Below, piece after piece: positions 1,110 through 34,792 of a stretch of DNA of 35,756 bases (position 1 is the first letter of the stretch; each line of letters opens with the position of its first letter). The notes under the pieces are model-generated. The model had not been told where the DNA came from. It worked only from the letters and a program-made list of their open reading frames with translations, and made no database searches. The stretch comes from Bacteroidota bacterium (GTDB lineage: Bacteria; Bacteroidota; Ignavibacteria; UBA10030; UBA8401). A program made the position numbers and the translations under genes. The stretch is taken from NCBI GenBank assembly GCA_019455105.1, contig JACFMZ010000018.1, positions 1 through 35,756 on the forward strand, in the 5' to 3' direction.

Positions 1110-1170
1110 AGTCGCTCCTTCTGTATTGTTTATGGTTTTGTGTTAATTTTTATTTCTAAAACTTTTTGAA

Positions 1171-2427
1171 CTAAAATTCTTTGAACCAATCTTTCATTTT
1201 TGTAAAGACACTTTTTACTCCGCCGGAAAGTTTTTTTTCCGTCTCGCCGATATTTCCGGTGATACCGCGCTGCTGTTTTTTTATCGCGTTCAACACCAGC
1301 CCGACTCCGGTAGCATACATTGGGTTTTCAATTTCTCTTACAAACCCGCCTTTAAATCCCCGCGGAATTCCCATCTTCACCGGCATGCCGAGAATTTCGC
1401 GCGTTAAGTCGGCGGCGCCTTTAATAAGCGAGCCTCCGCCGGTGAGCACAATACCTGCCGATAAATGTTTTTGATACGCAGAGCGTTTAATTTCCAACGC
1501 AACAATTTCTAAAATTTCTTCCATGCGGGGCTGAATAATCTGGCAGAGCATCCGCTGTTCAATGACCATCGGTTCGCGGCCGCCGATTCCCGGCAGCGTA
1601 ATCGGTTCGTTATCGGCAAGCGCCGGCAGATACGCATGACCGTATTGCAGTTTAATTTGTTCTGCCTGAGCGGCTAAAATTCCTAATCCGCGCCGAATAT
1701 CATCCGTAACTTTATTTCCGGCAATGCCGATAACGGCGGTATGCCGAATGGTATGATCGGAAAAGATGGCAAGGTCTGCCGTTCCGCCGCCGATATCAAG
1801 AAGGGCAACGCCGACTTCTTTTTCTTCATGTTCCAGCACGGCATTGGCGGAAGCAAATGGTTCCAGAACAATATCGCTGACGTTGACTTTTGCGCGCTGA
1901 ATGCATTTAATAATATTCTGAACGGCGGAAACCAGCCCGGTTACGATATGCACCGTGGCTTCCATGCGCAGCCCCGAAACTCCCACCGGGTCATAAATAC
2001 CGTCCTGCCCGTCAACAATAAATTCCTGCGGAATAACGTGAAGAATTTTTCTGTCCGGCGGAAGGAGAATTTTTTTCGTGTCTTCAATAAGGCGGTTCAC
2101 ATCGCCTTGCTTTATCGACTGATCGGCGCCGCTGATTGTTACAACGCCGCGGTTCTGAAAACTTTGAATATGATCGCCGGCAATTCCCGCCACCACATTT
2201 TGAATTTTCACGCCCGACTGTTGCTCGGCATCATAAATTGCGGCAGAAATGGAAGCGGCGGCTTTGTCGATATGCGTAATTACGCCGCGCGTTAATCCTT
2301 CCGATTTGCTTTTTCCGATACCGAGAATGTTAATTTCATTGTTTGCGCCGACGGAGGCAACAACGGCGCAGACTTTTGTCGTTCCAATATCAAGTCCGAC
2401 GTAAATATTTTCCATAGTATTACTCAT
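1171..2427 (-). CDS. ftsA: Cell division protein FtsA
   Basis: Actin-fold ATPase that tethers FtsZ filaments to the inner membrane and links them to later divisome proteins. The 418-residue product starts with the actin-type phosphate-1 loop GLDIGTTKVC (11-20). It carries the second phosphate loop LLDIGGGTADLAIF in the middle and an adenosine-binding VLTGGGSLIKG late in the chain. It ends in the amphipathic helix MKDWFKEF, the expected membrane-targeting sequence. The ATG overlaps the ftsQ stop as ATGA. An in-frame ATG four codons downstream (MENIYVGLD) is an alternative start. Length and motif order are normal for the family. Confidence 0.97.
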   Translation of the reverse strand: MSNTMENIYVGLDIGTTKVCAVVASVGANNEINILGIGKSKSEGLTRGVITHIDKAAASISAAIYDAEQQSGVKIQNVVAGIAGDHIQSFQNRGVVTISGADQSIKQGDVNRLIEDTKKILLPPDRKILHVIPQEFIVDGQDGIYDPVGVSGLRMEATVHIVTGLVSAVQNIIKCIQRAKVNVSDIVLEPFASANAVLEHEEKEVGVALLDIGGGTADLAIFSDHTIRHTAVIGIAGNKVTDDIRRGLGILAAQAEQIKLQYGHAYLPALADNEPITLPGIGGREPMVIEQRMLCQIIQPRMEEILEIVALEIKRSAYQKHLSAGIVLTGGGSLIKGAADLTREILGMPVKMGIPRGFKGGFVREIENPMYATGVGLVLNAIKKQQRGITGNIGETEKKLSGGVKSVFTKMKDWFKEF

Positions 2428-3221
2428 AACGATGAATTATAATTTGATAGAATAACCTGCTCTTCATACCGAAGATCGATATAACGAATATTTTTTGTCT
2501 CCATTCTGCTGACTACCTGTTTCCAAAATTCGTTCAGCTTTGCCATTTTCTTCACAACATCTCCCTGTCCGAAAATAATCGGCACAGCGCTTTCAAAAGA
2601 GTACAAAATAATATCATGCCCTTTACGTAAATGTATTTCCGAAATGCGGTGATACAGTTCTTCATTAATCAGATACGAAGCGCGGATAATTTCCAGCGCC
2701 GTTTGAATATCTGTATTGGTAATTTTCATTCCGGGCTTTAACTCAGAAGCCGTATCAACTCCGCTGATAACAGGAATATCGTATGTTTCCTGCGTTACGG
2801 AATACGGAAGAATAACTCCTTCATTATCTACGTAATACGTTTTGTCCTGATTTTTTACAACCAGAATTGCCGAGGGCTGGCGCTCTTCAATAAGAACGCG
2901 CAGCGACGAAGGAGCATCCCGTTTTACCGTAACGTTTTTGACATACGCATTATTTAAAATATTTTTTCGTATCACGGCTAAATCAATATCATACATCATG
3001 GCATGAGCCGGAAGCTGCATAATTTGCAAAACATCTTCGCGGGAAAGAATTGCCGTTCCGTCAATAATAATTTGACGCACCGGCACATGGTCTTCCCAAT
3101 TTGTTTTGAAGAAAAAAAACAAAAGAAGCATACCAACCAGCGCGGCAAAGGAAAGATAGACGCGCTTTCCATGACGCTCTTCTTCGGGTTCAATAGTTAT
3201 CGTTTCATGTTCGTTCTGCAT
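2424..3221 (-). CDS. ftsQ: Cell division protein FtsQ/DivIB
   Basis: Bitopic divisome protein that bridges cytoplasmic and periplasmic assembly with FtsL and FtsB partners. The 265-residue product has a charged cytoplasmic tail (1-20), one transmembrane helix (~22-40) and a periplasmic POTRA-type region from about residue 47 (VPVRQIIIDG...LSREDVLQIM). A beta domain ending near IRYIDLRYEEQVIL follows. FtsQ is poorly conserved, so the call rests on this architecture plus its place between murC (9 bases upstream) and ftsA (4-base overlap). The POTRA-like segment and the IRYIDLRY ending are typical of the family. Confidence 0.93.
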   Translation of the reverse strand: MQNEHETITIEPEEERHGKRVYLSFAALVGMLLLFFFFKTNWEDHVPVRQIIIDGTAILSREDVLQIMQLPAHAMMYDIDLAVIRKNILNNAYVKNVTVKRDAPSSLRVLIEERQPSAILVVKNQDKTYYVDNEGVILPYSVTQETYDIPVISGVDTASELKPGMKITNTDIQTALEIIRASYLINEELYHRISEIHLRKGHDIILYSFESAVPIIFGQGDVVKKMAKLNEFWKQVVSRMETKNIRYIDLRYEEQVILSNYNSSL

Positions 3222-3230
3222 TGCCTGTGT

Positions 3231-4610
3231 TTATGCCTGTAGTTCTTTTAAAAATTGTTCGCCGAATTTCCAGATATCGCCCGCGCCCATGGTAATAACA
3301 ATATCGCCGGACTTGGTAATTTTTTTCAAATACGCCGGAACATCTTCTTTCTTCTGCACGTAATGAACATTCTTATGCCCGTACTGTTTTGCCGCCTGCA
3401 CAATCAGTTCGCCGGTAACGCCTTGAATCGGTTCTTCGCGCGCCGGATAGATATCCGTAACAACCAAAACATCGGCAAGCAAAAATGCTTTTCCGAACTC
3501 TTCGTAAAAATCTCTTGTGCGGGAATACAAATGCGGTTGAAACACACAGACAACGCGCTTTCTCCATCCGGATTTTACGCCGCTTAATATTGCGCGGCAT
3601 TCCGTCGGGTGATGCGCATAATCATCATACACCGCAATGCCCTTCGCTTCTCCTTTTTTCTCCCAGCGCCGGTACACGCCGGAAAATTTTTCTATGCCCG
3701 CTTTTGCTTTTTTAAAAGGAACACCAAGTTCCAGCCCGACGGCGATTGCGGCAAGAGCGTTCTGCACATTATGTTTTCCGGGAATTTGCAGCGTTACTGT
3801 GCCGAGTTCTTCATAACCGCGGACAACGGTGAATGTTGTTGTATTTTCTTTATGAAGAATATCCACTGCCTGCAAATCTGCCTGCGGCGTTAATCCGTAC
3901 GAAATAATTTTTTTCTTCCGCAGTTGGGGAATAATATCCTGCAGCGCCGGCTCATCCAAGCAGAGCACAACAAAACCGTAAAACGGAACCTTATTTGCAA
4001 ACTGAATAAACGCTCCTTTAATATCTTCCAAATCGCGGTAGCAGTCGAGATGATCGGTTTCCAGCGTTGTCAGCACGGCAACAGTCGGCGTAATGGAAAG
4101 AAACGAGCGGTCAAATTCATCCGCTTCAACCACAATAAATTCACCTTTTCCCAAACGAGCATTGGTTCCGCCGAGTCCGCTCAATTTTCCGCCGACAATA
4201 ACCGTCGGGTCAAGCCCTCCTTCCATTAATACCAGAGAGACCATGGAGGTAGTGGTGGTTTTTCCATGTGTGCCGGCAATACCGACGCCGTATTTTAAGC
4301 GCATCACTTCGGCAAGCATTTCAGCGCGGCGCACAATCGGAATTTTTCTGCGCAGGGCTTCCTGCACTTCCGGATTTTCTGAAATAACCGCCGATGAATA
4401 CACAACCGTATCAACATCATCGGCAATATTTTCCGCTTTATGTCCTTCGTAAATAACGGCGCCGAGCTGTTGAAGCCGCTCCGTAACATCGCTGAGCGAG
4501 CGATCCGACCCGCTGATATGAAATCCCTGATCGAGCAGAATTTCCGCAATGCCGCTCATGCCGATTCCGCCGATACCTACAAAGTGTAATTTTTTAATTG
4601 ATGAAAACAT
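3231..4610 (-). CDS. murC: UDP-N-acetylmuramate--L-alanine ligase MurC
   Basis: Cytoplasmic ATP-dependent ligase that adds L-alanine to UDP-MurNAc, the first peptide step of peptidoglycan precursor synthesis. The 459-residue protein shows the N-terminal UDP-binding GIGGIGMSGIAEIL, the ATP P-loop GTHGKTTTT (113-120), the central-domain EADEFDRSFL and C-terminal DDYAHHPTE, all diagnostic of MurC rather than MurD/E/F. The ATG at 4610 gives the expected family N-terminus. No murB or ddl follows, unlike many dcw clusters. Upstream neighbours are two non-canonical genes rather than murG directly. Confidence 0.98.
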   Translation of the reverse strand: MFSSIKKLHFVGIGGIGMSGIAEILLDQGFHISGSDRSLSDVTERLQQLGAVIYEGHKAENIADDVDTVVYSSAVISENPEVQEALRRKIPIVRRAEMLAEVMRLKYGVGIAGTHGKTTTTSMVSLVLMEGGLDPTVIVGGKLSGLGGTNARLGKGEFIVVEADEFDRSFLSITPTVAVLTTLETDHLDCYRDLEDIKGAFIQFANKVPFYGFVVLCLDEPALQDIIPQLRKKKIISYGLTPQADLQAVDILHKENTTTFTVVRGYEELGTVTLQIPGKHNVQNALAAIAVGLELGVPFKKAKAGIEKFSGVYRRWEKKGEAKGIAVYDDYAHHPTECRAILSGVKSGWRKRVVCVFQPHLYSRTRDFYEEFGKAFLLADVLVVTDIYPAREEPIQGVTGELIVQAAKQYGHKNVHYVQKKEDVPAYLKKITKSGDIVITMGAGDIWKFGEQFLKELQA

Positions 4611-5898: not shown

Positions 5899-6993
5899 TC
5901 AATTCTTTATCATAGAAAGAATTTTTTCTGCAATTTCTTTGCCGGCATTCGGTCTCCCTAATTCTTTGCTCTTCTCGCTCATTCTCTCCAGCGCTTGGTC
6001 GTCGGAAATTAACTGCTGAACGGTGTTGAGTAATTTGCCGTCTAACTCTTTGTCGTCAATCAAAACTGCGGCGCCGCTTTCCACCATTGTCTTTGCATTT
6101 AAGAACTGATGATTTGCCGCCGCATGCGGATACGGAATAAGAATTGCCGGTTTACCGACCCGTGTTAATTCCGCCAGTGTTGTTGCACCGGCGCGGCTGA
6201 TGACAACATCCGATGCCGCATACGAAAATTCCATGTGCTCGATATACTTCATAAGTTTAATATTCGGATGATGCTGCACCATCGGCAGCGACGACCAATC
6301 GCTTTCTCCCGTCTGCCAAATCACCTGAATGTCGTTTTCCACTGCCCATGAAACTATTTTCGGCATTGCTTTATTAATTGACTGCGCGCCTAAACTTCCG
6401 CCGAAAGCAAACAATGTTTTTTTTGCCGGAGAAAGCTGCAGTTCAGCGCAGGCTCTCTCTCGTGTTATGCTGCTCAAAATTTCCCGCGTCGGATTTCCAA
6501 GAAGTTCTGTCGTTGAGGTTTTCTTCAGCCATTGTTTCGTAATTTCAAAGGTGATAAAAACCTTGTTGACTCTTCCCGCCAGCAGGCGCGTTGTTACGCC
6601 GGGAAAACTATTGCTCTCATGAATCGCCGTCGGAATTCCGAGAAACGACGCTGCAAATAATACCGGTCCGCAGACGTAACCCCCGGTTCCAATTACCGCC
6701 TGAGGTTTAACTTTTCGTATGAGAAAGAACGACTGCAACAACGAAACAATCACTTTCAGCGGAAAAAGAATATTCCTGAGTTTCATTCTTCGGTGAAAAC
6801 CACTGATCCAAAGAGGATAAAATTCATATCCTTTTTGCGGAACAACCCTCGCTTCAATTTTTTTCTTTGTTCCGGCAAACACAAAACGCGTTTGGGGCTT
6901 TATGTGTTGTATCTCTTCGGCAATTGCTATTGCAGGATACAAATGCCCGCCTGTTCCGCCTCCCGCAAATAAAATTGTCAAAGGACGGCTCAT
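5899..6993 (-). CDS. murG: UDP-GlcNAc:lipid I GlcNAc transferase MurG
   Basis: Peripheral membrane glycosyltransferase (GT28) that converts lipid I to lipid II on the cytoplasmic face. The 364-residue chain carries the N-terminal loop GGGTGGHLYPA (11-21), a middle GSLGAQSINKAMP and the donor-binding segment VISRAGATTLAELTRVGKPAILIPYP. These are the standard MurG signatures, at normal length. It starts one base after the ftsW stop. The nearest downstream gene is 180 bases away, the largest gap within the cluster. Confidence 0.98.
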   Translation of the reverse strand: MSRPLTILFAGGGTGGHLYPAIAIAEEIQHIKPQTRFVFAGTKKKIEARVVPQKGYEFYPLWISGFHRRMKLRNILFPLKVIVSLLQSFFLIRKVKPQAVIGTGGYVCGPVLFAASFLGIPTAIHESNSFPGVTTRLLAGRVNKVFITFEITKQWLKKTSTTELLGNPTREILSSITRERACAELQLSPAKKTLFAFGGSLGAQSINKAMPKIVSWAVENDIQVIWQTGESDWSSLPMVQHHPNIKLMKYIEHMEFSYAASDVVISRAGATTLAELTRVGKPAILIPYPHAAANHQFLNAKTMVESGAAVLIDDKELDGKLLNTVQQLISDDQALERMSEKSKELGRPNAGKEIAEKILSMIKN

Positions 6994-6994
6994 G

Positions 6995-8176
6995 CTAATA
7001 CACTCTGCCGACTGCCGGTTCTTGTTCTACGGAAACAACAGCCGGCTGCTCGCTTATGCGCGGGTGTAAATCGGTCTGCGAAGAAATATTCAACAGTACG
7101 CCGATAGCATAACAGGATGAAATAATTGCTGTTCCTCCGTAACTTACAAAAGGCATCGGCACGCCGGTTGTCGGCACAAGCCCGAGTGTTACCAGCGTAT
7201 TTGCCAGTGCATACAACACAATTGTTGTTGTTATTCCGATAGCTAAAAATTTTCCAAAATCATCCGGAGCGTATTTTGCAATCCGCAGCCCGCGTGATAA
7301 AATGAGCAGAAAAATCAGCAAGAACAGTACCGTGCCGATAATTCCGTACTCTTCGCCCACAATGGAAAAAATAAAATCACCGTACGATTCCGGAAGAAAC
7401 AAATCTCGCTGTTTGCTCATTCCCATTCCGACGCCGAAAATTCCACCGTTGCCGAATCCGATAATTCCCTGCAGAAGCTGATAATTATCTTTTGCGGCAA
7501 TGCCTGAATCATCATTGGCAAACCCGATATACGAAAGAATTCGTTTCATCCGGTACGGCGCGCTGATCATATACACCACCAGTGCCGGAAGCAGCGCCGA
7601 AAGCGAAAGCAGCACATGCTTTAACCGCGCTCCGCCGATAAAAATCATTAACATACCGAGCACGCAAATTATTGCTCCGGTAGAAAAATTCGGCTGAATC
7701 ATTACCAGCACAACAACAAGCCCAACCCAGAAAAGAAGCGGAACAAATCCTTTTTTAAAATCTTGCAGTTTCGTTCCTTTCGAAGAAAGTAATGTTGCCA
7801 GGTGAAAGATTAACGCAAACTTTGCTACTTCGGAAGGCTGTAAATTGACTCCGCCTGTTGAAATCCATCGCACGGCTCCTTTTGCTTCACTGCCGGCTAT
7901 GCGTGTAACAATAAGCAGCACAACCGCGCCGAGTAAAACCCAGAGTGTCAACGGTTTATATTTCCGATAATCAATATTGATGGCAAAAAACATTACCACA
8001 AAACCAATCAGCACTTTCACGATATGTTTGTTCACAAGCCCTGCCGCCGACCGGATATGCGGATTATTTAACGCCCATGATGATGAGGCGGAATACACCA
8101 CAACAATACTCGAGACAAGTAAGAACAACACCACAATTAGAATCATTCTGTCAATATGATTTTTTCGCGACGCCAT
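6995..8176 (-). CDS. ftsW: Lipid II polymerase FtsW (SEDS family)
   Basis: Polytopic inner-membrane SEDS glycosyltransferase that polymerises lipid II at the septum with FtsI. The 393 residues contain about ten hydrophobic helices. Family landmarks include LQPSEVAKFALI in the first half, GFGNGGIFGVGMGMSKQRD and FLPESYGDFIFSIVGEE in the large periplasmic region, and GVPMPFVSYGG near the C-terminus. RodA shares the fold, but the position between murD and murG in a dcw cluster favours FtsW. Its ATG overlaps the murD stop (TAATG). Confidence 0.96.
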   Translation of the reverse strand: MASRKNHIDRMILIVVLFLLVSSIVVVYSASSSWALNNPHIRSAAGLVNKHIVKVLIGFVVMFFAINIDYRKYKPLTLWVLLGAVVLLIVTRIAGSEAKGAVRWISTGGVNLQPSEVAKFALIFHLATLLSSKGTKLQDFKKGFVPLLFWVGLVVVLVMIQPNFSTGAIICVLGMLMIFIGGARLKHVLLSLSALLPALVVYMISAPYRMKRILSYIGFANDDSGIAAKDNYQLLQGIIGFGNGGIFGVGMGMSKQRDLFLPESYGDFIFSIVGEEYGIIGTVLFLLIFLLILSRGLRIAKYAPDDFGKFLAIGITTTIVLYALANTLVTLGLVPTTGVPMPFVSYGGTAIISSCYAIGVLLNISSQTDLHPRISEQPAVVSVEQEPAVGRVY

Positions 8177-9561
8177 TATAATTGCCCGACTAATTGTTTA
8201 AAAATATTGCCGCGCTCTTCATAATCCGTAAACCAATCGTACGATGTGCAGGCGGGAGCCAGCAGAACAATATCTCCGCGCTGCGCTGACTGCGTTGCGA
8301 TATCAATTGTTTTTTTCATTGATTCAATATTCGGTATTGCCGTTCCCATGGTTTCAACTTTTACAGTCTTCACTTTGTCGGAAAAATTCTTCACAATCGT
8401 ATCGGCGGAATAACCGGTGGCAATAAGCGCTTTCACTTTTTGTTTTACCAAATCATAAATGGTTGAATAATCATTCCCTTTATCTTTTCCCCCCATAATC
8501 AACACAATCGGTTTTTTGTAACTTTTCAAAGCCATTTCTACCGCTTCCACCGTTGTGGCTTTGGAATTGTTGATATAGATAATCCCGTTCACCTCGCGGA
8601 CAAATTCCTGGCGGTGTTCAACGCCGGTAAAACTTTTTAACGTCGCCTGAATTGATGGAAGCGAAATTCCCGATAACCGCGCGGCAAGAGAAGCCGCCAT
8701 GGCATTCTGCACGTTGTGTTCGCCTTTAATAAAAATTTCGTCCGTAGAAATCACTGTTTCTTCAGTTCCGTTAATTTTTAGTTTTACGCTGTTCCGTTCC
8801 AGAAATGAGCCGTTCTCAACAGCATGCTTCAAGCTAAAATTGTACGCTTTCGATTGGTATTGCGTTGCTGTTTTTTTTGTCCACGCATCTTCCGCATTCA
8901 TTATTAAGAGATCATCGTGTTGTTGATTCTTAAAAATCCGGCACTTTGAAAGTGCATATTTCTCCATGGAATGTTCGTATCGGTCCATATGATTTTGCGT
9001 AATATTTAAGATGACAGCAATCTTCGGACGAAACGAATCAATAAAGTCCAATTGAAAACTGCTTACTTCCAAAACAACAACAGTCTCCTCATCAACATCC
9101 ATAACGAGGGATGAGAACGCCGTTCCAATGTTACCCGCAACAATGTGTTTTTTCTTTGCATCGCTGAACATCCTTCCTAACAACGTGGTGGTTGTTGTTT
9201 TTCCGTTACTGCCGGTAATGGCAATAATGGGACCTTTACAAAACCAGCTTGCTGCTTCAATTTCAGCTACAACATTTATTCCGCGCCGCTTTGCTTCCAA
9301 GACAACCGGTGCGTTGGAGGGGACACCGGGACTTATTACCATTAAAGAACAATTGTACACTCGTTCGCTGTGTCCGCCGAACTCACATTCAATATTTTGC
9401 TGCTGCAATTCGGCAATATGTTGTTTCGTGCGGTCGCTGTTTCCAAAATCGCTGACAAAAACTTTTGCTCCTTTATGTTTCAACAGCAGTGCAACGGCAA
9501 CACCGCTTCGTTCCGCACCGATAATAGAAATTGATTTTCCGGCAACATCCGCAGCGTTCAC
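8176..9561 (-). CDS. murD: UDP-N-acetylmuramoyl-L-alanine--D-glutamate ligase MurD
   Basis: Cytoplasmic ligase adding D-glutamate to UDP-MurNAc-L-Ala. The 461-residue protein has the N-terminal nucleotide-fold IIGAERSGVAVALLL, the P-loop ITGSNGKTTTT (115-125), LEVSSFQLD and the C-terminal LLAPACTSYDWFTDYEERG, which is characteristic of MurD. The start is GTG, preceded by GGTGAG, four bases after the mraY stop. The N-terminal dinucleotide-like loop is slightly atypical (GAERSG), but the rest is canonical. Confidence 0.97.
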   Translation of the reverse strand: MNAADVAGKSISIIGAERSGVAVALLLKHKGAKVFVSDFGNSDRTKQHIAELQQQNIECEFGGHSERVYNCSLMVISPGVPSNAPVVLEAKRRGINVVAEIEAASWFCKGPIIAITGSNGKTTTTTLLGRMFSDAKKKHIVAGNIGTAFSSLVMDVDEETVVVLEVSSFQLDFIDSFRPKIAVILNITQNHMDRYEHSMEKYALSKCRIFKNQQHDDLLIMNAEDAWTKKTATQYQSKAYNFSLKHAVENGSFLERNSVKLKINGTEETVISTDEIFIKGEHNVQNAMAASLAARLSGISLPSIQATLKSFTGVEHRQEFVREVNGIIYINNSKATTVEAVEMALKSYKKPIVLIMGGKDKGNDYSTIYDLVKQKVKALIATGYSADTIVKNFSDKVKTVKVETMGTAIPNIESMKKTIDIATQSAQRGDIVLLAPACTSYDWFTDYEERGNIFKQLVGQL

Positions 9562-9565
9562 ACAC

Positions 9566-10681
9566 TCACCGCACTTTGAATGTTGTTAAACTTAAAATCA
9601 TCAGCAAAATGGCGATAATATAAAACCGCATCACAATTTTCGGTTCAGACCACCCGGCTAATTCAAAATGATGATGAAGCGGCGCCATTTTAAAAACGCG
9701 TTTCCCCGTGCCGTACTTTTTCTTAGTGTATTTGAAATAGAGCCGCTGAATAATCACCGAGACTGTTTCCATAAAAAATACGCCGCCGAGAATCGGAAGA
9801 ATTAATTCTTTCTTTGCCATAACCGTTAACGCGCCGATTGCTCCGCCCAGCGCCAGCGATCCGGTATCTCCCATAAAAATTTGCGCGGGGTACGAATTAT
9901 ACCACAAAAAGCCAAGCGCCGCACCGACCATGGCAATACAAAAAACAATCAGCTCGCCGTTCCCCCGCAGATAAATAATATTCAGGTAACGGCTGAATTC
10001 AATATTTCCGGAAACATAAACAATTAAACCAAGCGTGAACGCAACAATTCCCGACGTCCCGATTGCCAGCCCGTCAAGTCCGTCCGTTAAGTTCACCGCG
10101 TTTGAAGTTGCGGTAATAATAAAAATCACCAGCGGGATATAAAATATTCCGAAATTGAATTCTACATTTTTTAAAAACGGAATTGTCGTTGTTGTATTAG
10201 CATGAATTGCGCGCAGCTCCGGCATTGAGAATAACACGTATCCTAAAATAACGCCGACCGTTATCTGCCCGATAATTTTATACCAACCGACAAGACCTTC
10301 TTTTTTCTTCTTCACAATTTTTAAATAATCATCCATGAAGCCGACGAAGCCGAGCCCTGCCGTAACCACTATAATTAATAACACGTAGGTATTCGTTAAA
10401 TCCGCCCATAAGAGTGTCGGAATTAAAATTGCGGAGAGCACAATAATGCCCCCCATCATCGGCGTTCCGGCTTTCAGTTTATGTTTTTCCGGCGCCCCTT
10501 CGCGGTACGTGGTAACGATTCCTTTATTTTTTAACATCGTAATCACTTTCCCGCCGAGAATAAAACTGATGAACAACGCCGTAATTGCCGCCGCCGCCGC
10601 GCGAAAGGTTAAATACTTTACCACGCCGAATCCCGGCGGATGATAAAGCTGATCAATCCAATATAAAAGATGATACAACAT
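9566..10681 (-). CDS. mraY: Phospho-N-acetylmuramoyl-pentapeptide-transferase MraY
   Basis: Integral membrane enzyme that transfers phospho-MurNAc-pentapeptide to undecaprenyl phosphate, giving lipid I. The 371-residue polytopic protein shows KLKAGTPMMGG near the N-terminus, the catalytic-loop aspartates in GFMDDYLKI, NLTDGLDGLAIG, FMGDTGSLALGG and the histidine cluster PLHHHFELAGW. All are diagnostic of MraY rather than WecA. Six bases separate it from the murF stop. Confidence 0.98.
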   Translation of the reverse strand: MLYHLLYWIDQLYHPPGFGVVKYLTFRAAAAAITALFISFILGGKVITMLKNKGIVTTYREGAPEKHKLKAGTPMMGGIIVLSAILIPTLLWADLTNTYVLLIIVVTAGLGFVGFMDDYLKIVKKKKEGLVGWYKIIGQITVGVILGYVLFSMPELRAIHANTTTTIPFLKNVEFNFGIFYIPLVIFIITATSNAVNLTDGLDGLAIGTSGIVAFTLGLIVYVSGNIEFSRYLNIIYLRGNGELIVFCIAMVGAALGFLWYNSYPAQIFMGDTGSLALGGAIGALTVMAKKELILPILGGVFFMETVSVIIQRLYFKYTKKKYGTGKRVFKMAPLHHHFELAGWSEPKIVMRFYIIAILLMILSLTTFKVR

Positions 10682-10687
10682 GCGATG

Positions 10688-12082
10688 TTAGAGATTTTGC
10701 ATAGTTAATTGAAGCACGACTTCTTCCATTTTCATTCCGCGCGAGCCTTTTATTAAAAGCACATCAAAATTTTTCACCACTCGTTGAAGCTCTACCAATA
10801 ATTCCGTTTTTGTTTGAAAATGCATTTTATGAATTCCGGTAAACGCTTCATGGGTATACACCGACAAATGACCGAATGTGAACAGCCATTCAAAACCCAT
10901 TTCCGATGCCAGTACGCCGATATTTGTATGTTCCCGCTTTGATGCTTCGCCGAGTTCCTTCATATCGGCAAGCACAACAATTTTTTTTCCGTTCGCCTTA
11001 AACGCTGCCAGCGTTTGCAGCGCCGCCAGCACCGAATCCGGATTTGAATTATACGTATCATTCAAAATAGTATAACCGCCGTGAGTAAGAATCTGCATTC
11101 GCTTATTTGCAGAAGTAAAATTCTGCAGTGCTTCCGAAATTTTTTTCGGCGGCACTTTTGCTTTTAAACCAACCGCACTGGCTGCCAGTGCATTCACAAC
11201 ATTATGCTTCCCCGGTGCTTGAAGCGTAACCGGAAATTTTTTCTTTTTATATTCAATAAGAAAATTCGACTGACCCTTTTCATTCACCGTGATCTTTTTG
11301 GCGCGAATTTCTGCTTTTACCGTTGTTCCGTAGCTGAGAAATTTTTTTGAATATTTCTTTTCTTTCTCCAGATACGGATCGTCGCTGTTAATAAACACAA
11401 ATCCTTTATTCTTTCGCACCCAGCGGAACAATACTGTCTCTTCCTGCGCCACGCCGTCGAGATCTTTGAAAAATTCAAGATGCTCTTTGCCGATATTGGT
11501 CAGCAGCGCGTGTGTCGGCTCCAGAATTTCACACAAGTATTGCAATTCGCCGAAATGATTAGTGCCGACTTCAACAACGGCAAATTCATCATCGGGCTGC
11601 AAGCGAAACAATGTCTGCGGTACGCCGATGTGATTGTTCAGATTTCCTTCCGTAGCGAGAGTTTTATATTTTTTCCTCAGCACCGCCGTTATCATTTCTT
11701 TTGTTGTCGTTTTACCGTTACTGCCGCCGATAGCAAGAACCGGAATGGTAAATTTTCTCCGGTAAAGACGCGCCAGATCTCCATACGCCCGCGTTGTTTC
11801 GGGAACCGCCGCCGTCATACATTTCAAAGAACGAACATATTCTACATTCTTTTCTCCCCACGTTTTTTCAACAACTATAACAGAAGGTTTTTTTTCAACA
11901 ATCTCTTTTATAAAATTATGCGCATCAAATGTTTCACCGTGCAGTGCAAAAAAAATATTTCCTTCTTGTAGAGAACGTGAATCGGTTGAAACGCCGGTAA
12001 TTTTTTTCCCCTTCAAAGTTTCCGGACAAAACAGCTCAACATTAGTCAGCTTTTGAAAATCTCGAAGCGTAATACGTTTCAT
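10688..12082 (-). CDS. murF: UDP-MurNAc-tripeptide--D-Ala-D-Ala ligase MurF
   Basis: Cytoplasmic ligase completing the UDP-MurNAc-pentapeptide by adding D-Ala-D-Ala. The 464 residues include STDSRSLQEGNIFFAL in the UDP-binding N-domain, the P-loop GGSNGKTTTKEM (119-130), TNIGKEHLEFF and the C-terminal NDTYNSNPDSVLAAL and LADMKELGE, which distinguish MurF from MurE. Its ATG overlaps the murE stop (ATGA). Keeping murF in the cluster is a useful lineage hint, because many Bacteroidota clusters lack it here. Confidence 0.97.
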   Translation of the reverse strand: MKRITLRDFQKLTNVELFCPETLKGKKITGVSTDSRSLQEGNIFFALHGETFDAHNFIKEIVEKKPSVIVVEKTWGEKNVEYVRSLKCMTAAVPETTRAYGDLARLYRRKFTIPVLAIGGSNGKTTTKEMITAVLRKKYKTLATEGNLNNHIGVPQTLFRLQPDDEFAVVEVGTNHFGELQYLCEILEPTHALLTNIGKEHLEFFKDLDGVAQEETVLFRWVRKNKGFVFINSDDPYLEKEKKYSKKFLSYGTTVKAEIRAKKITVNEKGQSNFLIEYKKKKFPVTLQAPGKHNVVNALAASAVGLKAKVPPKKISEALQNFTSANKRMQILTHGGYTILNDTYNSNPDSVLAALQTLAAFKANGKKIVVLADMKELGEASKREHTNIGVLASEMGFEWLFTFGHLSVYTHEAFTGIHKMHFQTKTELLVELQRVVKNFDVLLIKGSRGMKMEEVVLQLTMQNL

Positions 12083-13566: not shown

Positions 13567-13609
13567 TTCTTACTCTCAATTAAAAATAATGTAGTACGGC
13601 TTTCTCTTT

Positions 13610-13635
13610 AAAAACGCGCTTGCTGTTAAACAGCA
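13610..13635 (-). terminator. Weak terminator/attenuator-like hairpin between ftsI and murE
   Basis: TGCTG and CAGCA (13621-13635) form a short hairpin two bases after the ftsI stop. On the transcript strand a run of five T (13614-13610) follows six bases later. The stem is short and the T-run is displaced, so at most partial termination is expected. This 70-base gap is one of the few non-overlapping junctions in the upstream half of the cluster. Confidence 0.3.
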
Positions 13636-13636
13636 T

Positions 13637-15805
13637 TCAATATAATTGTGCCGCCGTTAAAGCTTTCGGTTCGCACATAATGGTAACTCTCGCACCAACC
13701 TTCACCGCTGTTCCTGAACCGGGAAATTGATTAACAACAACACCGCTCCCGATAATCGTTACGCCTAAATGATTTGCCGCAAGATTATTCGATGCGCGGC
13801 GAACGCTCATTCCGTGAACATCCGGTACCTTCTGCATTCCTGCCAGCAGCGGTGTTTCTTCATCCATCATAATGTTAATATAGGTTCCGCGTTCAACAAT
13901 ACTTTCTGCGGCAGGATATTGGCGCATTACTTCGTCTCCCTTGCCGTAAATTTTTGTCTGAAATCCGTGTTGCTGTAAAATTCTTACTGCATCGTTCACT
14001 GTTCTTCCGCAAATATCAGGAACAACCTCAATGCTCTTGTCTTCTTTGTTTGTTGTTTCCTGCAACGGTGTTGTAACCGTTTTTGCAATCAGACCGTTGT
14101 TATTGATTATTCGTTCCGTAATAGCTTTAAAAATCGGTGCGCTGGCAACAGCTCCGGTATAACCAACTTTCGGTTTTTCCGTCATAACTAAACAGACAAG
14201 CTCCGGTTTCTCCGCCGGAAAAAATCCGACAAACGATGCATTATAACTTCCGCTCTCGTATTTCCCGTCAACATACTTTCGCGATGTACCGGTTTTTCCT
14301 GCAATGGTAACGGTCGGAAGTTTTACCACGCCGCCGGTTCCGAATTCTACCACGCTTTCAAGCATCGTCTTTACCTGCTGTGCCGTTTCGCGTGATGTAA
14401 CGCGGCGGATTTTTGTCGGCTCATGAACAAACACTTCATTTCCCAGCGGATCAATTTCTCGTTTTACGATGTACGGCTTCATTAACATACCGTCGTTTGC
14501 AATGGCGGCATACGCGGCGGCAATTTGCAGCGGCGTTACGCCGACTTCGTATCCATAAGCAATGGTATTTAATGTTGTGCCGGACCATTCAACCGGTTTT
14601 TTAAGCTGACCGTTTATCTCCGCCGGCAGTTCAATGCCGGTAGTCATTCCGAAACCGAAATTTCGCGCCTCGTTATAAAGATTTTCCGGGCCGATAAGAT
14701 TGCTCACTTTTGCCATAACAATATTGCTGGAATACGCCATAGCTTCCATGAACGTAATATCTTTCATGGGATGGGTATCGGAAATTGTGCGCATTTTATT
14801 TCCGGCTAACTGCACTTTATACGATCCGTTTTCCGCATAAAATTTTTTGTCGAGCGTCGTTACATTATTTTGCAGCGCCGCAGACGCAGTAACAATTTTA
14901 AAAACCGAACCGGGTTCGTACATATCCGAGACAACTCTGTTGCGTAACAGATCTACGCTTTTGATTTCATTCAAATTCACCGGCGGGTAATTTGCCAGCG
15001 CAAGAATTTCTCCGGTCTGCGGCTGAAGTATCACCACCAATCCCGCTTCTGCCTGTGTGCGCTGAATTCCTCTCTTCAATTCTTCTTCAGCAATTGATTG
15101 ATAAGTCAGGTCGATGGTTAATTCCAGCGAATTCCCGTTCACCGGATCTTCACGCGGATAATCCGTTGAAGGACGCGCTCTGTTTTTTCCGTCTTTTTGC
15201 AACACCACATAACCGTCAACGCCGCGAAGTTCTTTGTCGAATTGCTGTTCAATACCGCTGACACCGACATATTCGGCATTAATGGTGCCGAGCACCTGCC
15301 CGAGCCGCTCATTGTAATGATAGAGCCGAACCGGTTCATTTGATTTAACAACACCAACCAAACTGTCCACCGGAATTTTTTCTGCTTCATCCGGGCGCAT
15401 TGCTTTTTCAAGAACAACATAGCGCTTCGAACTCTGTAATTTTTCTAAATATTCTTTTATCGGTTTTCCGGTAATCTTAGAAAATCGCTCGGCAATTTTC
15501 CGCGCGTATTGTCCGCTGAACTTCGGATTGGCAGAAAACGAAACAAATTGTGAATTTGAAACAAGCAGATTCCCGTTCCTGTCGTAAATATTTCCACGCT
15601 GTGCATGCAAAGGAACGCGTACTTCATACTGCTTCTTGGCAATATCTTGGTACTTCGAAGCATCAAGAATCTGAATTTGCACCAAGCGAACTGCCGCACC
15701 GATAAAAACAAAAATAAAAATCACCTTCACCCACAATAAGCGATGCGTATAATCCTTTAACTCAGGCACTATCACTTCATTTTTTTTATGAAAGAAATTC
15801 CACAT
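13637..15805 (-). CDS. ftsI: Septal transpeptidase FtsI/PBP2B-like with two PASTA domains
   Basis: Class B penicillin-binding protein that cross-links septal peptidoglycan and partners FtsW. The 722-residue chain has one N-terminal membrane anchor (~28-45) and a PBP-dimer pedestal with RGNIYDRNG (70-78). The transpeptidase domain carries SVFK with nucleophile Ser300, SSN (359-361) and KTGTS (504-508). Two PASTA repeats follow at ~594-648 (VPDICGRTVNDAVRIL) and ~659-712 (VPDVHGMSVRRASNNL). PASTA repeats bind peptidoglycan-like ligands in Gram-positive relatives, and their presence in an mDAP, FtsQ/A-type cluster is noteworthy. The ATG lies two bases after the ftsL stop. Confidence 0.95.
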   Translation of the reverse strand: MWNFFHKKNEVIVPELKDYTHRLLWVKVIFIFVFIGAAVRLVQIQILDASKYQDIAKKQYEVRVPLHAQRGNIYDRNGNLLVSNSQFVSFSANPKFSGQYARKIAERFSKITGKPIKEYLEKLQSSKRYVVLEKAMRPDEAEKIPVDSLVGVVKSNEPVRLYHYNERLGQVLGTINAEYVGVSGIEQQFDKELRGVDGYVVLQKDGKNRARPSTDYPREDPVNGNSLELTIDLTYQSIAEEELKRGIQRTQAEAGLVVILQPQTGEILALANYPPVNLNEIKSVDLLRNRVVSDMYEPGSVFKIVTASAALQNNVTTLDKKFYAENGSYKVQLAGNKMRTISDTHPMKDITFMEAMAYSSNIVMAKVSNLIGPENLYNEARNFGFGMTTGIELPAEINGQLKKPVEWSGTTLNTIAYGYEVGVTPLQIAAAYAAIANDGMLMKPYIVKREIDPLGNEVFVHEPTKIRRVTSRETAQQVKTMLESVVEFGTGGVVKLPTVTIAGKTGTSRKYVDGKYESGSYNASFVGFFPAEKPELVCLVMTEKPKVGYTGAVASAPIFKAITERIINNNGLIAKTVTTPLQETTNKEDKSIEVVPDICGRTVNDAVRILQQHGFQTKIYGKGDEVMRQYPAAESIVERGTYINIMMDEETPLLAGMQKVPDVHGMSVRRASNNLAANHLGVTIIGSGVVVNQFPGSGTAVKVGARVTIMCEPKALTAAQLY

Positions 15806-26267: not shown

Positions 26268-28349
26268 TTAAGATTCGGCAACAGGAAGCGTAACGGTTAC
26301 TTTTGTTCCCTTATGAAGTGTGCTTTCAATGGTAAGAGTTCCGTTATGAATCTGCACACATTGTTGAACAATCGTCAGCCCTAATCCGGTTCCGAACATA
26401 TTGCCGACATTTGAACCGCGAAAAAATGTTTTAAATAAATGGGCTTGATCGAGCGCAGGAATTCCGATTCCGTGATCTTCCACAATGAGAACGCAGGAAT
26501 TTTCTTTGCGCTCCGCGTGAAGAATTACATCGCTTCCGTTCGGTGAATATTTAAAAGCGTTGGAGAGAAGATTATATAATATTGTCTGTATCAATTCGCC
26601 GTCCAGCCGCACGGCATTCAGAACGCCTTGTTCAATAAATAAAAAGCGGTGCTGCGATTCCAAATCGTGCTGCACTTGTTTGGCAACAGCCTGCGAAAGT
26701 TCTTCTAAATTTATTATTGTCGGAGAAAAGGAAATATTCCCGGCGGCAGCTTTTGTTGTAAAGACTACATCATGAAGCAGATCTTTCATTTCTTTCAGCG
26801 ATTCGTTGATGCGGTAAAACGCCTGATATCTCCGCTCGCTGCTCCATTTATCGATAAACCGCTCCAGCAGTTCGGTGTTCGACGCAATGGTAACTAATGA
26901 TGTGCGAAGCTGATTGGTCACCATCGCAATAAATCGTGATTTGAGTTCGTGTAATTCATTTTCACGTTCCGTGGCAATGCGCAAATGGTTCTCAGCTTCA
27001 ATCTCTTTTGTCTTATCAAGAAAAAAACCGATATGACGCATGGAAGAAGAACTCGGCACCGAGACAATTTCAAAATAGACCGGAATTGATTCTCCGCCGG
27101 CAGAATGAATTACCGCATCTCCGCGAAATTGTTCCGCTTTGTTTTCTTGATTTTTCCACTGCTCAAGAAAAAATTCTCTTTCATTCTCGGAAAAGAATAT
27201 TGAAAAACTTTCTCCCAGCAGCGATGATTTTTGCGAATCATGAAGCAGACAGAGCGTATCATTAATATCCAAAACAGCTCCCGTATCATCCAGCAGGCAG
27301 CAACCAATCGGCACATGAGCAATAACATTTTGAATTGAGCGATCTAACTGTTCCAATTGCGTGTGAAGCGTTGCCGTACTTGCGCGTAATTCTTCCGTGC
27401 GGGCGCGTTCGGCTTCGTAGCGGTTTTGCGTTGCATTGTTCTTTTGCTCTAATTCTTTAATCACTCCGTACAGCCGCTCTTTACTTTCCTGCAGCGCTGA
27501 TTCTGTGGTCTGGTGCTTGGTGTGCTCTTCCGAAAGTTGTTCGCGAAGCGTTTGAAGTTCGGCATGAAGAGCCGTAATGGTATTTTGAAAATTCTCCGAT
27601 GATTGTTCGGCGCCTAAACGTCCGGCCATTTCGGTATTATAGGTCATCGTCAGATGGTCAATCGTTCCCTGCAGTTCGGAATTTTTTTTCTGCAGCTGCT
27701 GAATTGTGCCGTACAATTCTTCAATGGTCTTCTGTAATTCGGTTGATGCCGTTTCGTTGTTTTCGGTTAACGCGCGCAGTGAACTTAATAATTGTTCGCC
27801 GGAACGGTCTTTTTCGTTTAATTGCTGATTGAGTGCTGCAATCGTTTCTTTCTGCTCGGCGGCAAATAATTCCATTGTTTCAATTTTTGCACGGAGCTGT
27901 TCTTCCGTATTGTGAAGAGCTGTTTCTGATGAGCGGCGCGCAGAAAGTTCACTTTCCCATTTCTGTGTTACCGCTTCGTTTTCCTGCTGTAATTTTAGAA
28001 TTTGTTCCTGTAATAACTGCTTCTGTTTTTCCTGTTCTTGAGTTTGATTTTTTAGTTCATCAAAAATTTTTTTTCGGGCTTCATCGGCAAGCTTCCCGGA
28101 CTCACGTTCCTGGTGAAGACGCTGCAGTTCTTGACGAAGATCTGTTATTTGTTTTTCCTGCTGCGAAAACAAATCGGATTTTTTTTTCTCTTCTTGTTCC
28201 AGCCGATCTATTTTTTGCAGCTGTGCAACAGTTCCTTTTTGACTTTCCGCTATCGCATTCCGAAAAGCGTTCAACTTGTTCGTCATTACCGTGATAATGA
28301 CAAGAAGAATAATAACGGCGAGAATAAGACTTAACGAAGTAATATCCAT
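26268..28349 (-). CDS. Coiled-coil PAS histidine-kinase-like protein lacking the phospho-His
   Basis: The 693 residues comprise one N-terminal membrane helix (~5-23), a long Gln/Glu-rich coiled coil (~30-335), a PAS domain (~340-455), a HisKA-like dimerisation segment and a HATPase domain (~575-690). ATP-binding boxes look intact: N box LLSNAFKYSPNG, G1 EDHGIGI, F-box LFKTFFRG and G2 GTGLGL. The H box reads FIAMVTNQLRTSL, so the usual phospho-accepting His of SHELRTPL is Asn479, with Glu to Gln and Pro to Ser changes beside it. Autophosphorylation on the canonical site is therefore not expected. There is no periplasmic sensor domain, so sensing would be cytoplasmic, and no response regulator is adjacent. 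Its N-terminal two thirds is paralogous to the upstream gene. Confidence 0.9.
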   Translation of the reverse strand: MDITSLSLILAVIILLVIITVMTNKLNAFRNAIAESQKGTVAQLQKIDRLEQEEKKKSDLFSQQEKQITDLRQELQRLHQERESGKLADEARKKIFDELKNQTQEQEKQKQLLQEQILKLQQENEAVTQKWESELSARRSSETALHNTEEQLRAKIETMELFAAEQKETIAALNQQLNEKDRSGEQLLSSLRALTENNETASTELQKTIEELYGTIQQLQKKNSELQGTIDHLTMTYNTEMAGRLGAEQSSENFQNTITALHAELQTLREQLSEEHTKHQTTESALQESKERLYGVIKELEQKNNATQNRYEAERARTEELRASTATLHTQLEQLDRSIQNVIAHVPIGCCLLDDTGAVLDINDTLCLLHDSQKSSLLGESFSIFFSENEREFFLEQWKNQENKAEQFRGDAVIHSAGGESIPVYFEIVSVPSSSSMRHIGFFLDKTKEIEAENHLRIATERENELHELKSRFIAMVTNQLRTSLVTIASNTELLERFIDKWSSERRYQAFYRINESLKEMKDLLHDVVFTTKAAAGNISFSPTIINLEELSQAVAKQVQHDLESQHRFLFIEQGVLNAVRLDGELIQTILYNLLSNAFKYSPNGSDVILHAERKENSCVLIVEDHGIGIPALDQAHLFKTFFRGSNVGNMFGTGLGLTIVQQCVQIHNGTLTIESTLHKGTKVTVTLPVAES

Positions 28350-28412
28350 AATTTCTTATAACGGAAACTTTCTGTTGATGAGTACGCTGTTATGCCGATA
28401 GTGTAGGGTACC

Positions 28413-28431
28413 GCAATTTTTTGAAAATTGC
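28413..28431. repeat. Short perfect hairpin between the two coiled-coil PAS genes
   Basis: GCAATTTT (28413-28420) and AAAATTGC (28424-28431) pair perfectly around a 3-base loop, 40 bases past the stop of the upstream paralogue and 64 bases before the kinase-like gene. No T-run follows on the transcript strand. It may be a weak processing or attenuation hairpin within the pair. The remaining spacer (28350-28470) shows no gene. Confidence 0.35.
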
Positions 28432-28470
28432 AATTGAAGTATTGCTCGGCGGGCGTTATTGTAAAACGCT

Positions 28471-29814
28471 TTATGCAGCGGGAACTTCCTGCGGTTCTAA
28501 AAGATAGGCAATATAAAACGGCTCATTCCATGCGGTGGGAATTAAGGACAACGTAAAATAAACAAGAAGTTTTGAACCGTCATTAATTGTTATAGAAATA
28601 TTTCCCTGAAAATAATCTTCTTTGGATTCAAAGGCGTTCCATTGATTCATAATAAACGACCGTTCCTCCGGAGAAAAAAGTGCGCCGAAATCTTTTCCTA
28701 TTAATGCGGCTTCCAGAGAACCGAAAAATTTTCCGAAGTGTTCATTGGCGGCGAGAATTGTTCCTTTGTTATTTAACAAAAATGCCATTACGGGCGCCTT
28801 ATACAGAACCGTTTTTACCATTTTTGTAAAAGAATCTTCCATATCTTCTGTGCCGGGCTGAGCCGAACGATTTTTTTTCTTCTCTTCAAGTAATTCTTTT
28901 TCCAAGAGAAGAAGTTTCTTTTGAAGATCATTGATATTTGCCGTAAGACTTTTTTCTACATCCTCACGATTTCGTAATTGCTGCAATTCTTCATTCTGAC
29001 CGTCAATAATTTGTTTTAATGTTTCAATGGTCGTTTGAAGTTTCTCTTCGCTCTCTTTTCCTTTTTCAATGAGATTTTTCTGTGCAGCATGTTCAACTTC
29101 CAATTGCCGTTCGAGAATTTTCACGGAATATTCCAGTTCGCTCATGGATTGCTGCAAAGCAACGCTGGACATATCCTTTGAAGCGAATGAAGAAGCTAAT
29201 TCCAGTTCCCGTTTTTGCAATGCCGCTTCGGCAGCATGAAGCTGATCGGTTTTCTTTTTCACCTCATCGCGCAGCACGGCAATCTGCTGTTCGTTCATGT
29301 TTTTCTTTTGATGCAGCAGGGAAACAGAATCATTCTGCTCGCGGATAATTTTCTGCAGCGACGATATTTTGGCTTGAAATTGTTCTAACGATTGGAACGG
29401 AAGATTTGACTGCAGTGCTGCGGTTTCTTGTTCTTTTTTTAATTCTTCCTGCAGTTCAACAACCTGTTTTTTACTTTCTGCTAATTCATTATTAACAACG
29501 GAAAGTGTTTCCTGCAGTTTACGGATCTGCGCACGAAAATGGTCAGATGTTTTCTGATCTTCCGTTTGCGACTGCCGGTCGGCGTTTAATTCTCTTAAAA
29601 GTCCTTCTATGGTAGTTTCTTTTTCCGAGCTTTGCTGTGTCAGTTCGGAAATCTTCACCTGCTGTTTGGAAACTTCCAGATTCGCCTTCATTAAATGCTG
29701 CTGAAGATCGGCACGTTCTTTTTCCGCGGCAAGATTTTTTGTTACCAGCCGGTACAGCCAAAAGGTCAGCACTGCAACACCGGGAAGCCACCAATATTGA
29801 AACAGATATTCCAT
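28471..29814 (-). CDS. Membrane-anchored coiled-coil PAS protein, paralogue of adjacent kinase-like protein
   Basis: The 447-residue protein has one N-terminal transmembrane helix (~8-23), a coiled coil of roughly 310 residues rich in Gln, Glu and Lys, and a single PAS domain (~338-440), after which it stops. The PAS shares a clear pattern with the neighbour: LFSPEERSFIMNQW here against FFSENEREFFLEQW there, both followed by a conserved Lys, a Phe-x-Gly and a VYF beta strand. The anchor-to-PAS spacing is the same in both proteins. No catalytic or output domain is present. It could dimerise with the kinase-like protein or act as a scaffold; the function is unknown. Confidence 0.85.
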   Translation of the reverse strand: MEYLFQYWWLPGVAVLTFWLYRLVTKNLAAEKERADLQQHLMKANLEVSKQQVKISELTQQSSEKETTIEGLLRELNADRQSQTEDQKTSDHFRAQIRKLQETLSVVNNELAESKKQVVELQEELKKEQETAALQSNLPFQSLEQFQAKISSLQKIIREQNDSVSLLHQKKNMNEQQIAVLRDEVKKKTDQLHAAEAALQKRELELASSFASKDMSSVALQQSMSELEYSVKILERQLEVEHAAQKNLIEKGKESEEKLQTTIETLKQIIDGQNEELQQLRNREDVEKSLTANINDLQKKLLLLEKELLEEKKKNRSAQPGTEDMEDSFTKMVKTVLYKAPVMAFLLNNKGTILAANEHFGKFFGSLEAALIGKDFGALFSPEERSFIMNQWNAFESKEDYFQGNISITINDGSKLLVYFTLSLIPTAWNEPFYIAYLLEPQEVPAA

Positions 29815-33196: not shown

Positions 33197-33230
33197 AAAA
33201 TGCTTCAGTTGTTTTTCAAAACAGCATTTT
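33197..33230 (-). terminator. Hairpin overlapping the end of the DUF2156 gene
   Basis: AAAATGCT (33197-33204) pairs with AGCATTTT (33223-33230), and GTTTT (33211-33215) pairs with AAAAC (33218-33222). A 6-base bulge lies on one arm. The structure spans the stop codon at 33216-33218. Only four T follow before the sequence becomes mixed, so termination would be partial. The downstream 130 bases before the glycosyltransferase gene contain no gene. Confidence 0.35.
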
Positions 33231-34253
33231 TCTTATTCCTTTCATCACAAAGCGAAACGGAGACATGCCGGAAAATGCCGTAGCGATGGCGTAGAGCGTT
33301 GCCGGCGTCGGCGTTGCTTCATTGGTAATAGCGTACACCGGCTCCCACATTTGAGGAAAAAATTTTGCTTTAAAAGAATCCAAGCCGTTGAAATTATAAA
33401 AATATTTTCCGTACGCTTTTGCGGCACGCAGAACAGTTTTCAGCCAGAGCGGATGATGAATGGTTGAATGATAATGTTCCGAGAGAGGCGAAAGCCCCAG
33501 CGTAACGAGCGATGCGGATAATGTATTGAGATGAACAATCAGTTTTTCCAGCAGAAGTTCCGCCGTGCCGTTCGGCGCGCGCCTGCCTCGAACAATCTGC
33601 TCAATCAGCCAGCCGTTGCGCAGCGGAATGGGCGAGGCGATGCAAAAGCCGGCTGCCTGATTTTCAAAAACTGCTACGGCAACAATTCTATCTTCCAACC
33701 GTTCAAGTGTAAACGGTTCAACAAGAAAATGCATCGGAGGAAGATGGCGGGCAGCGAGCCATTCATGAAGAGATTGAACAAGCTGCGGATGATTTACCGC
33801 TTTTGTACTTTCCCACAATTCAACAGTTACGCCTTTATTCAGCGCGCGCGAAAGCTGCGCACGCAGAGATGGTTTCGCATACACATTGTCAATCCATTGC
33901 TGCGGATGCCACACCGGCTGCGCGCCTAACAATACGGTGGAAGCGGGAAGATGTTTGGAAAGAATTGCCGCAATCCGTTCCTGCGCGCTGAAGTAACAAA
34001 CTTTTTTCTTTTTTGCCGCAGCATACGCGGTAAATTCCAGCACGCTGAATTCCAAATCTTCATCCGCGCAGTTGGGCGCACCGGCGGCGATAAGATGCGT
34101 GGAGGTTTCCACATAGCCGATAACCGAGCGGTGTGTGGAAGAAAACCACCAGAGAATTCCGGGATTTAATATCTGATACGAAATGGTATTCCATCCGAAT
34201 TGAAGAACAAGTTCGCGGGCGCGCCGATACTCTTCTGTTGTATTGTTTACCAT
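33216..34253 (-). CDS. DUF2156 protein (phosphatidylglycerol lysyltransferase C-terminal-like)
   Basis: Soluble protein resembling the catalytic tandem-GNAT domain of MprF-type aminoacyl-phosphatidylglycerol synthases (DUF2156), without the flippase membrane domain. The 345 residues include LNPGILWWFSSTHRSVIGYVE, FSAQERIAAIL, a central WLAARHLPPMHFLVEPFTLERLEDR, then AVFENQAAGFCIASPIPLRNGWLIEQI, and the late GLDSFKAKFFPQMWEPVYAI. These follow the family order. I chose the ATG at 34253, which overlaps the NUDIX gene by 7 bases. A longer frame to 34334 would run deep into the NUDIX gene. Substrate is unknown and aminoacyl-tRNA use is only a family possibility. Confidence 0.82.
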   Translation of the reverse strand: MVNNTTEEYRRARELVLQFGWNTISYQILNPGILWWFSSTHRSVIGYVETSTHLIAAGAPNCADEDLEFSVLEFTAYAAAKKKKVCYFSAQERIAAILSKHLPASTVLLGAQPVWHPQQWIDNVYAKPSLRAQLSRALNKGVTVELWESTKAVNHPQLVQSLHEWLAARHLPPMHFLVEPFTLERLEDRIVAVAVFENQAAGFCIASPIPLRNGWLIEQIVRGRRAPNGTAELLLEKLIVHLNTLSASLVTLGLSPLSEHYHSTIHHPLWLKTVLRAAKAYGKYFYNFNGLDSFKAKFFPQMWEPVYAITNEATPTPATLYAIATAFSGMSPFRFVMKGIRKMLF

Positions 34254-34792
34254 GTTCTTGAAGAAAGTTTGCGAACCATCCGCAGCACCGATTCTTCCGT
34301 TGTGTAGTGTTGAATTTCGGAAAGAGAAACCCATGCAAGATTTTTTGATTCCGAAGAAATTTTTAGAGGCTGCCGTTCATCGGCTTCAAACAGAAAACGA
34401 ATATCATAATGAAAATGTGCCGGCTCGTTTGTTCGTTCGGGAATTTCATGAATATCAACATCAAAAATTTCATCGGTTACAGAAACAATTTGTTTCATTC
34501 CGGATTCTTCCAGCGCTTCACGCAGCGCCACCCGCAATATATCCGCATCTCCATCCGAATGACCGCCGGGCTGGAGCCATTTATTTAATTTTGCATGATG
34601 TGTCAGTAAGGTTTTTGTCCGCATTGCATTTACAATACATGACGAACCGGTAATATGGCCAATCTGCAGCGACCGTTCAAAGCAGGCGGGATGAGTTTCA
34701 ATAAATGAAATAATTTTTTCCGCCATGGATGTTTCATGAGCATCAAACGGCGAATAGGTTTTTAATTTACGAAGCAGTTCGTTTCTCTGCAT
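34247..34792 (-). CDS. NUDIX hydrolase
   Basis: Predicted pyrophosphohydrolase of nucleoside-diphosphate-linked compounds; substrate unknown. The 181-residue chain has an N-terminal helical extension, then WLQPGGHSDGDADILRVALREALEESG. This is the NUDIX box G-x5-E-x7-RE-U-x-EE-x-G-U, except that the first Glu is Ala with Asp next to it, as in the GGHxDGD subgroup of the family. The metal-binding REALEES core is intact. It ends in NLAWVSLSEIQHY. It sits 6 bases after the small exported protein gene and overlaps the DUF2156 gene by 7 bases. Confidence 0.92.
   Translation of the reverse strand: MQRNELLRKLKTYSPFDAHETSMAEKIISFIETHPACFERSLQIGHITGSSCIVNAMRTKTLLTHHAKLNKWLQPGGHSDGDADILRVALREALEESGMKQIVSVTDEIFDVDIHEIPERTNEPAHFHYDIRFLFEADERQPLKISSESKNLAWVSLSEIQHYTTEESVLRMVRKLSSRTW

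Follow-up and report, generated by a model that had tools for sequence, protein, structure and literature searches.

Tandem coil-PAS paralogues in a Bacteroidota genome: a family-conserved pseudo-histidine-kinase and its duplicate truncated after the PAS domain

Pseudokinases related to the histidine kinases are already known, DivL and RocA being cases of the sort described in this report. DivL of Caulobacter shows no activity as a kinase or a phosphatase, and its effect on the kinase CckA is allosteric (PMC4211667), and RocA of group A Streptococcus is a membrane relative of the histidine kinases, described as a pseudokinase that modulates its partner kinase CovS (PMC7028121). In the RetS/GacS system of Pseudomonas, one sensor kinase restrains the other by direct contact, and the original proposal was of a heterodimer incapable of autophosphorylation (PMC5992135). 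Also, a dependence on heptad length in the PAS-coil linkers of sensor kinases has been reviewed (PMC6798134). Below, we describe a pair of adjacent genes whose products, referred to here as the long protein and the short protein, can be compared with each of these systems.

Anatomy and origin of the gene pair

The window that we analysed is a stretch of 35,756 nt from a Bacteroidota bacterium, and the features of interest within it are collected in Table 1. A preliminary description of this DNA had proposed 2 genes encoding tandem paralogues with clearly related PAS domains, each with a membrane helix and a coiled coil, one of which continues into a degenerate kinase core whereas the other stops. 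With some corrections, these points were borne out by the observations that follow. The short gene lies upstream of the long gene on the minus strand and is separated from it by 121 bp. A repeat search found no tandem repeats. No kinase-core coding remnant could be read in the gap between the genes. The gap contains one weak promoter-like match, and the frequency of such matches in the region is not above chance; co-transcription of the 2 genes is neither shown nor excluded.

Table 1. Positions of features in the window, and of genes at related loci that are mentioned in the text
Feature	Residues	Nucleotides	Strand	Remarks
Pseudo-histidine-kinase (long) gene		26268..28349	-	693 aa
Long protein, TM helix	about 3-21	in gene 26268..28349	-
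Long protein, coil	about 22-338
Long protein, PAS	339-445
Long gene, PAS start, IQNVIAHVP	339-347	27309..27335	-	coordinates converted from residue numbers
Long gene, degenerate H-box FIAMVTNQLRTSL	473-485	26895..26933	-	coordinates converted from residue numbers
Long protein, HATPase_c	583-691			N, G1, F, G2 motifs retained
Intergenic gap		28350..28470	-	121 bp
Truncated paralogue (short) gene		28471..29814	-	447 aa
Short protein, N-terminal TM helix	about 5-23	in gene 28471..29814	-
Short protein, coil	about 24-332			contains Pro139, Pro320-Gly321
Short protein, PAS	333-440			protein ends just past last PAS strand
Short gene, PAS start, VKTVLYKAP	333-341	28792..28818	-	coordinates converted from residue numbers
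Gene matching LPG_synthase_C		33216-34334	-
Canonical HisKA kinase		1-1868		L042
Canonical HisKA kinase		about 13600-15090		L045
Canonical HisKA kinase		about 2074-3640		L046
Canonical HisKA kinase		6094-8340		L047
Canonical HisKA kinase		847-3034		L048
SnoaL-like / DCC-type		7674-8551		L043
SnoaL-like / DCC-type		9394-10308		L044
SnoaL-like / DCC-type		10713-11150		L046
SnoaL-like / DCC-type		14628-15588		L047

As far as the end of the PAS domain, the 2 proteins share one architecture, consisting of an N-terminal hydrophobic helix, a coil and the PAS domain. The membrane helix stands out plainly in the long protein (Kyte-Doolittle 3.0) and is weaker in the short protein, where it contains Trp and Pro (1.26 over 17 residues). 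The heptad pattern was significant in both coils (z of 7.4 and 7.8 against shuffled sequences). In comparisons with Pfam, the long protein matched HATPase_c (E 1.9e-26) and PAS, with HisKA falling slightly below the cut-off, and the short protein matched PAS above the gathering score (E 1.5e-07) and otherwise gave weak coiled-coil matches. Foldseek matches in the PDB to the PAS domains of Ec DOS and FixL support a PAS fold in the short protein.

The kinase core of the long protein is of the HisKA/HATPase_c type, and its H-box includes the sequence TNQLRTS, with Asn in place of the phospho-acceptor His by which an active HisKA kinase is recognised and Gln in place of the Glu of canonical kinases. 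The N, G1 and G2 nucleotide-binding motifs are present in its HATPase_c domain, and N597, D625, G627, G629 and GTGLGL showed no variation across the orthologue alignment. Since the His and the neighbouring Glu are gone and the nucleotide site is kept, the long protein probably acts allosterically and not by phosphotransfer. A scan of genome contigs with the long protein as query recovered general kinases only.

BLASTP aligned the short and long proteins over coil and PAS with an E value of 8e-20, and the closest relative of the short protein among 98 genomes of the order, its own included, was the neighbouring long protein. In trees of the PAS domain, the short protein grouped with the kinase of its own genome (support 96/96 without outgroups and 94/58 with them), on a very long branch, a placement that indicates duplication in this lineage, or else an older duplication at the base of the group, followed by loss in its other members. 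The pair is thus a genuine tandem duplication with matched anatomy. The short protein retains 11 of 11 family-invariant PAS residues, as against 17 of 83 at other positions, and its reading frame is open over 447 codons at ~23-29 percent identity, with a coding-like GC content by codon position. It has lost D445 and T447, the D-x-T output linker that follows the PAS domain in the kinases of this group, and most of the ALQESKxxLY motif, which is retained in all of the kinase orthologues.

Distribution among relatives

Of the 21 other genomes that represent the family, 11 carry a syntenic orthologue of the long gene, and none was found at that level in the rest of the order. Their conserved neighbourhood comprises MGDG-synthase-like, beta-lactamase-like, kinase, DUF2461 and pseudouridine synthase genes, the last four in conserved order. 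At the H-box position, 10 members of the 12-member orthologue group have Asn, one (G012) has Asp, and only one (G008) has His. In G008, the Glu adjoining this His has itself become His, and the protein branches within a group whose remaining members lack the His, which may therefore be a reversion. Related kinases of other architecture in the same family have canonical H-boxes. The loss of the phospho-acceptor, conserved as it is across the orthologues, is consequently old, and a syntenic group of 12 genomes, 11 of them without the His, shows that selection has kept the kinase-like fold despite that loss.

Several relatives carry a canonical HisKA kinase gene ~9-12 kb from the pseudokinase gene (Table 1); in L042, L047 and L048 at least, a gene for an OmpR-type regulator comes after it. 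The corresponding place in the window is occupied, with respect to some of these relatives, by a gene with a match to LPG_synthase_C, the domain found at the C-terminus of phosphatidylglycerol lysyltransferase. We considered the kinase-regulator pair as a partner of the pseudokinase and dropped it, because the genome under study has no clear orthologue of the pair; the best match there was at 33 percent and covered the kinase core only.

The short gene was found in none of the 97 other genomes of the order, nor was any second coil-PAS gene found there, so that the co-occurrence of both genes in relatives, which the preliminary description had suggested looking for, was not observed. In all 8 relatives with a readable flank (8/8), the kinase orthologue stands without a short gene beside it and small unrelated genes lie upstream; in the remaining 3 of the 11 relatives, a contig end lies upstream of the kinase. 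The genus is represented by one genome in our sample, and the short gene is known from that genome alone. A search of plasmids with the short protein gave no match. The position of the short gene is taken in most relatives by a gene for a small, secreted-looking SnoaL-like protein, often together with one for a DCC-type thiol oxidoreductase-like protein (Table 1), both names being given from the appearance of the sequence.

Rod length, register and the possible role of the short protein

The preliminary description placed the start of the PAS domain at about residue 338-340 in both proteins, which was close; the exact homologous starts are residue 333 in the short protein and 339 in the long protein, a difference of 6 residues. 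Compared with 339 in the long protein, the starts in its orthologues, counted from the Met adjoining the TM helix, are at 277, 346, 353, 372, 396, 410, 414, 424 and 424, two further orthologues being cut by contig ends. This range shows that the rod is not a fixed ruler in the family. Of 27 cross-clade orthologue pairs, none came within 6 residues of each other in PAS start and the closest differed by 7, although this comparison was post hoc and the short and long genes are duplicates. Also, the conserved ALQESKxxLY stretch appears to be present twice, in diverged form, in the long coil (residues 140-165 and 278-301), which suggests that the rod grows by duplication of internal segments. A signalling rod of 250-400 residues that varies by tens of residues between species speaks against a ruler of fixed reach.

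The preliminary description had further proposed a pressure to keep the 2 rods matched, and had named single orthologues with very different coil lengths as one observation that would refute it. Such orthologues were observed, the kinase standing alone in 8/8 readable flanks and the PAS starts running from 277 to 424; a general pressure of this kind is thus not supported, and a conserved paired ruler is not upheld. A matched-rod system is unsupported across the relatives and is conceivable solely as a feature of the lineage under study. The proposed reach of ~45 nm as one coiled coil is unlikely for the short rod, which contains Pro139 and Pro320-Gly321 and is modelled as four helices with breaks at residues 83-89, 137-142, 212-216 and 317-323, a model of low confidence from a two-row alignment. 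The structure models, built from one or two sequences, are weak (mean pLDDT 66.8 and 46.8).

We used simple dynamic programming to assign heptads; by this assignment the phase shifts three times along the long coil (at 134, 208 and 297) and seven times along the short coil. With the coils anchored at the PAS domain, 196 of the 309 residues share the same phase, as against a mean of 42 under a random-stutter null (p about 0.002, a rough value from a simple register model), and 56 of 88 core positions match, as against 1-41 between the short coil and other orthologues. Whole-heptad shifts of the anchoring scored about equally (42-59), and the test is consequently better evidence of a common phase than of one particular alignment. 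Along the exact PAS-anchored diagonal, residues 143-211 of the short protein and 149-217 of the long protein are identical at 18 of 69 positions (z 4.1), a mid-rod likeness that points to inheritance. Outside this stretch the coil alignment is ambiguous, and towards its C-terminus, where the Pro-Gly lies, the short rod is out of phase with the long rod. A 28-residue deletion offset by a 28-residue insertion in the coil was considered and dropped, as the family profile aligns the stretch otherwise, with low posterior support.

The explanation that we favour, and that we judge to stand about evenly between right and wrong, is that a conserved pseudo-histidine-kinase gene was duplicated in tandem in this lineage, and that the copy, the short gene, was truncated after the PAS domain and retained as a modulator. 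The long protein is a family-conserved, membrane-tethered coil-PAS pseudo-histidine-kinase, which probably serves other signalling proteins as a dimeric scaffold or as a partner and does not itself phosphorylate; by analogy with DivL, a dimeric, non-phosphorylating regulator is its most likely identity. The short gene is a duplicate of the long gene that, within our sample, is confined to this lineage; the whole region beyond its PAS domain was lost, and rapid divergence followed. The short protein has kept the anchor, the rod phase and the invariant PAS residues but not the output linker, and we infer from this that it most likely modulates the long one through coil and PAS. Possibly, it does so in mixed dimers with one output arm missing, which the geometry would allow, or as a homodimer in competition with the long protein for a PAS ligand or partner.

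A stronger proposal, which takes up the heterodimer suggested in the preliminary description, is that the rods are equal because the 2 proteins lie parallel and in register, paired all the way from the membrane to the PAS domain, with one kinase-like arm per dimer; this is possible, though in our view rather unlikely. The genes are adjacent on the same strand, every invariant PAS residue survives in the short protein, and the 6-residue difference in length goes with a common phase (196/309) above that of any other orthologue; yet common descent predicts the same phase, and duplicates are expected to share heptad phase and length in any case. Relatives that keep the long gene without the short one, and in which the PAS domain begins anywhere between residues 277 and 424, do not fit such pairing, nor do the Pro residues and predicted breaks of the short rod, and a crude charge-pairing score favours homodimers (6 and 12) over the mixed pair (5). 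An obligate mixed dimer of the pseudokinase with its truncated copy, in which a rod of >300 residues reaches from the membrane to the PAS domain and bears a single kinase-like arm, and whose phase and length were kept while identity fell below 30 percent, we regard as decidedly unlikely.

The higher of the 2 homodimer scores, 12, belongs to the short protein, and this value, the fast divergence of its coil and PAS (the long branch) and the loss of most of ALQESKxxLY would agree with a neofunctionalised, membrane-tethered PAS receptor that works as an independent homodimer with no contact to the pseudokinase. We hold this, too, rather unlikely, given the adjacency of the genes and the rod phase retained with the neighbour; moreover, such a receptor has no output domain and would need another partner anyway. 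That the short gene is a decaying, truncated copy, with equal rods as a leftover, is improbable despite its presence in one genome only, clean truncation, lost PAS linker and very long branch, for an intact frame of 447 codons at <30 percent identity with 11/11 invariant PAS positions is unlike long neutral decay.

Comparison with described systems

DivL resembles the long protein in combining a PAS domain with a HisKA-type core that lacks the phospho-acceptor His, and a search with the long protein's sequence matched, among others, the DivL structure 4q20. They differ in that DivL has Tyr at the His position where the long protein has Asn, and in that DivL binds the ATP analogue TNP-ATP weakly whereas the long protein retains the ATP motifs; also, the partner of DivL is CckA, and no CckA-like partner was identified for the long protein. 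A tandem paralogue of DivL in truncated form is not known to us. RocA, like the long protein, is a membrane pseudokinase of histidine-kinase kin, and has to our knowledge neither a 300-residue cytoplasmic coil nor a tandem coil-PAS copy.

With its old, conserved loss of the His and its kept nucleotide site, the long gene is a good test case for the roles of dead kinases, and the truncated twin, in its one lineage, offers a natural test of whether a coil and a PAS domain suffice to modulate the long protein. The RetS/GacS system differs from the present pair in that both of its partners are full kinases, whereas the short protein lacks the kinase core entirely. As to the PAS-coil linkers mentioned above, the rod under study differs in being N-terminal to the PAS domain, >250 residues long and free in length between species; it resembles them in that the coils relevant to register adjoin the PAS domain, as does the conserved part of the rod in the long-protein family.
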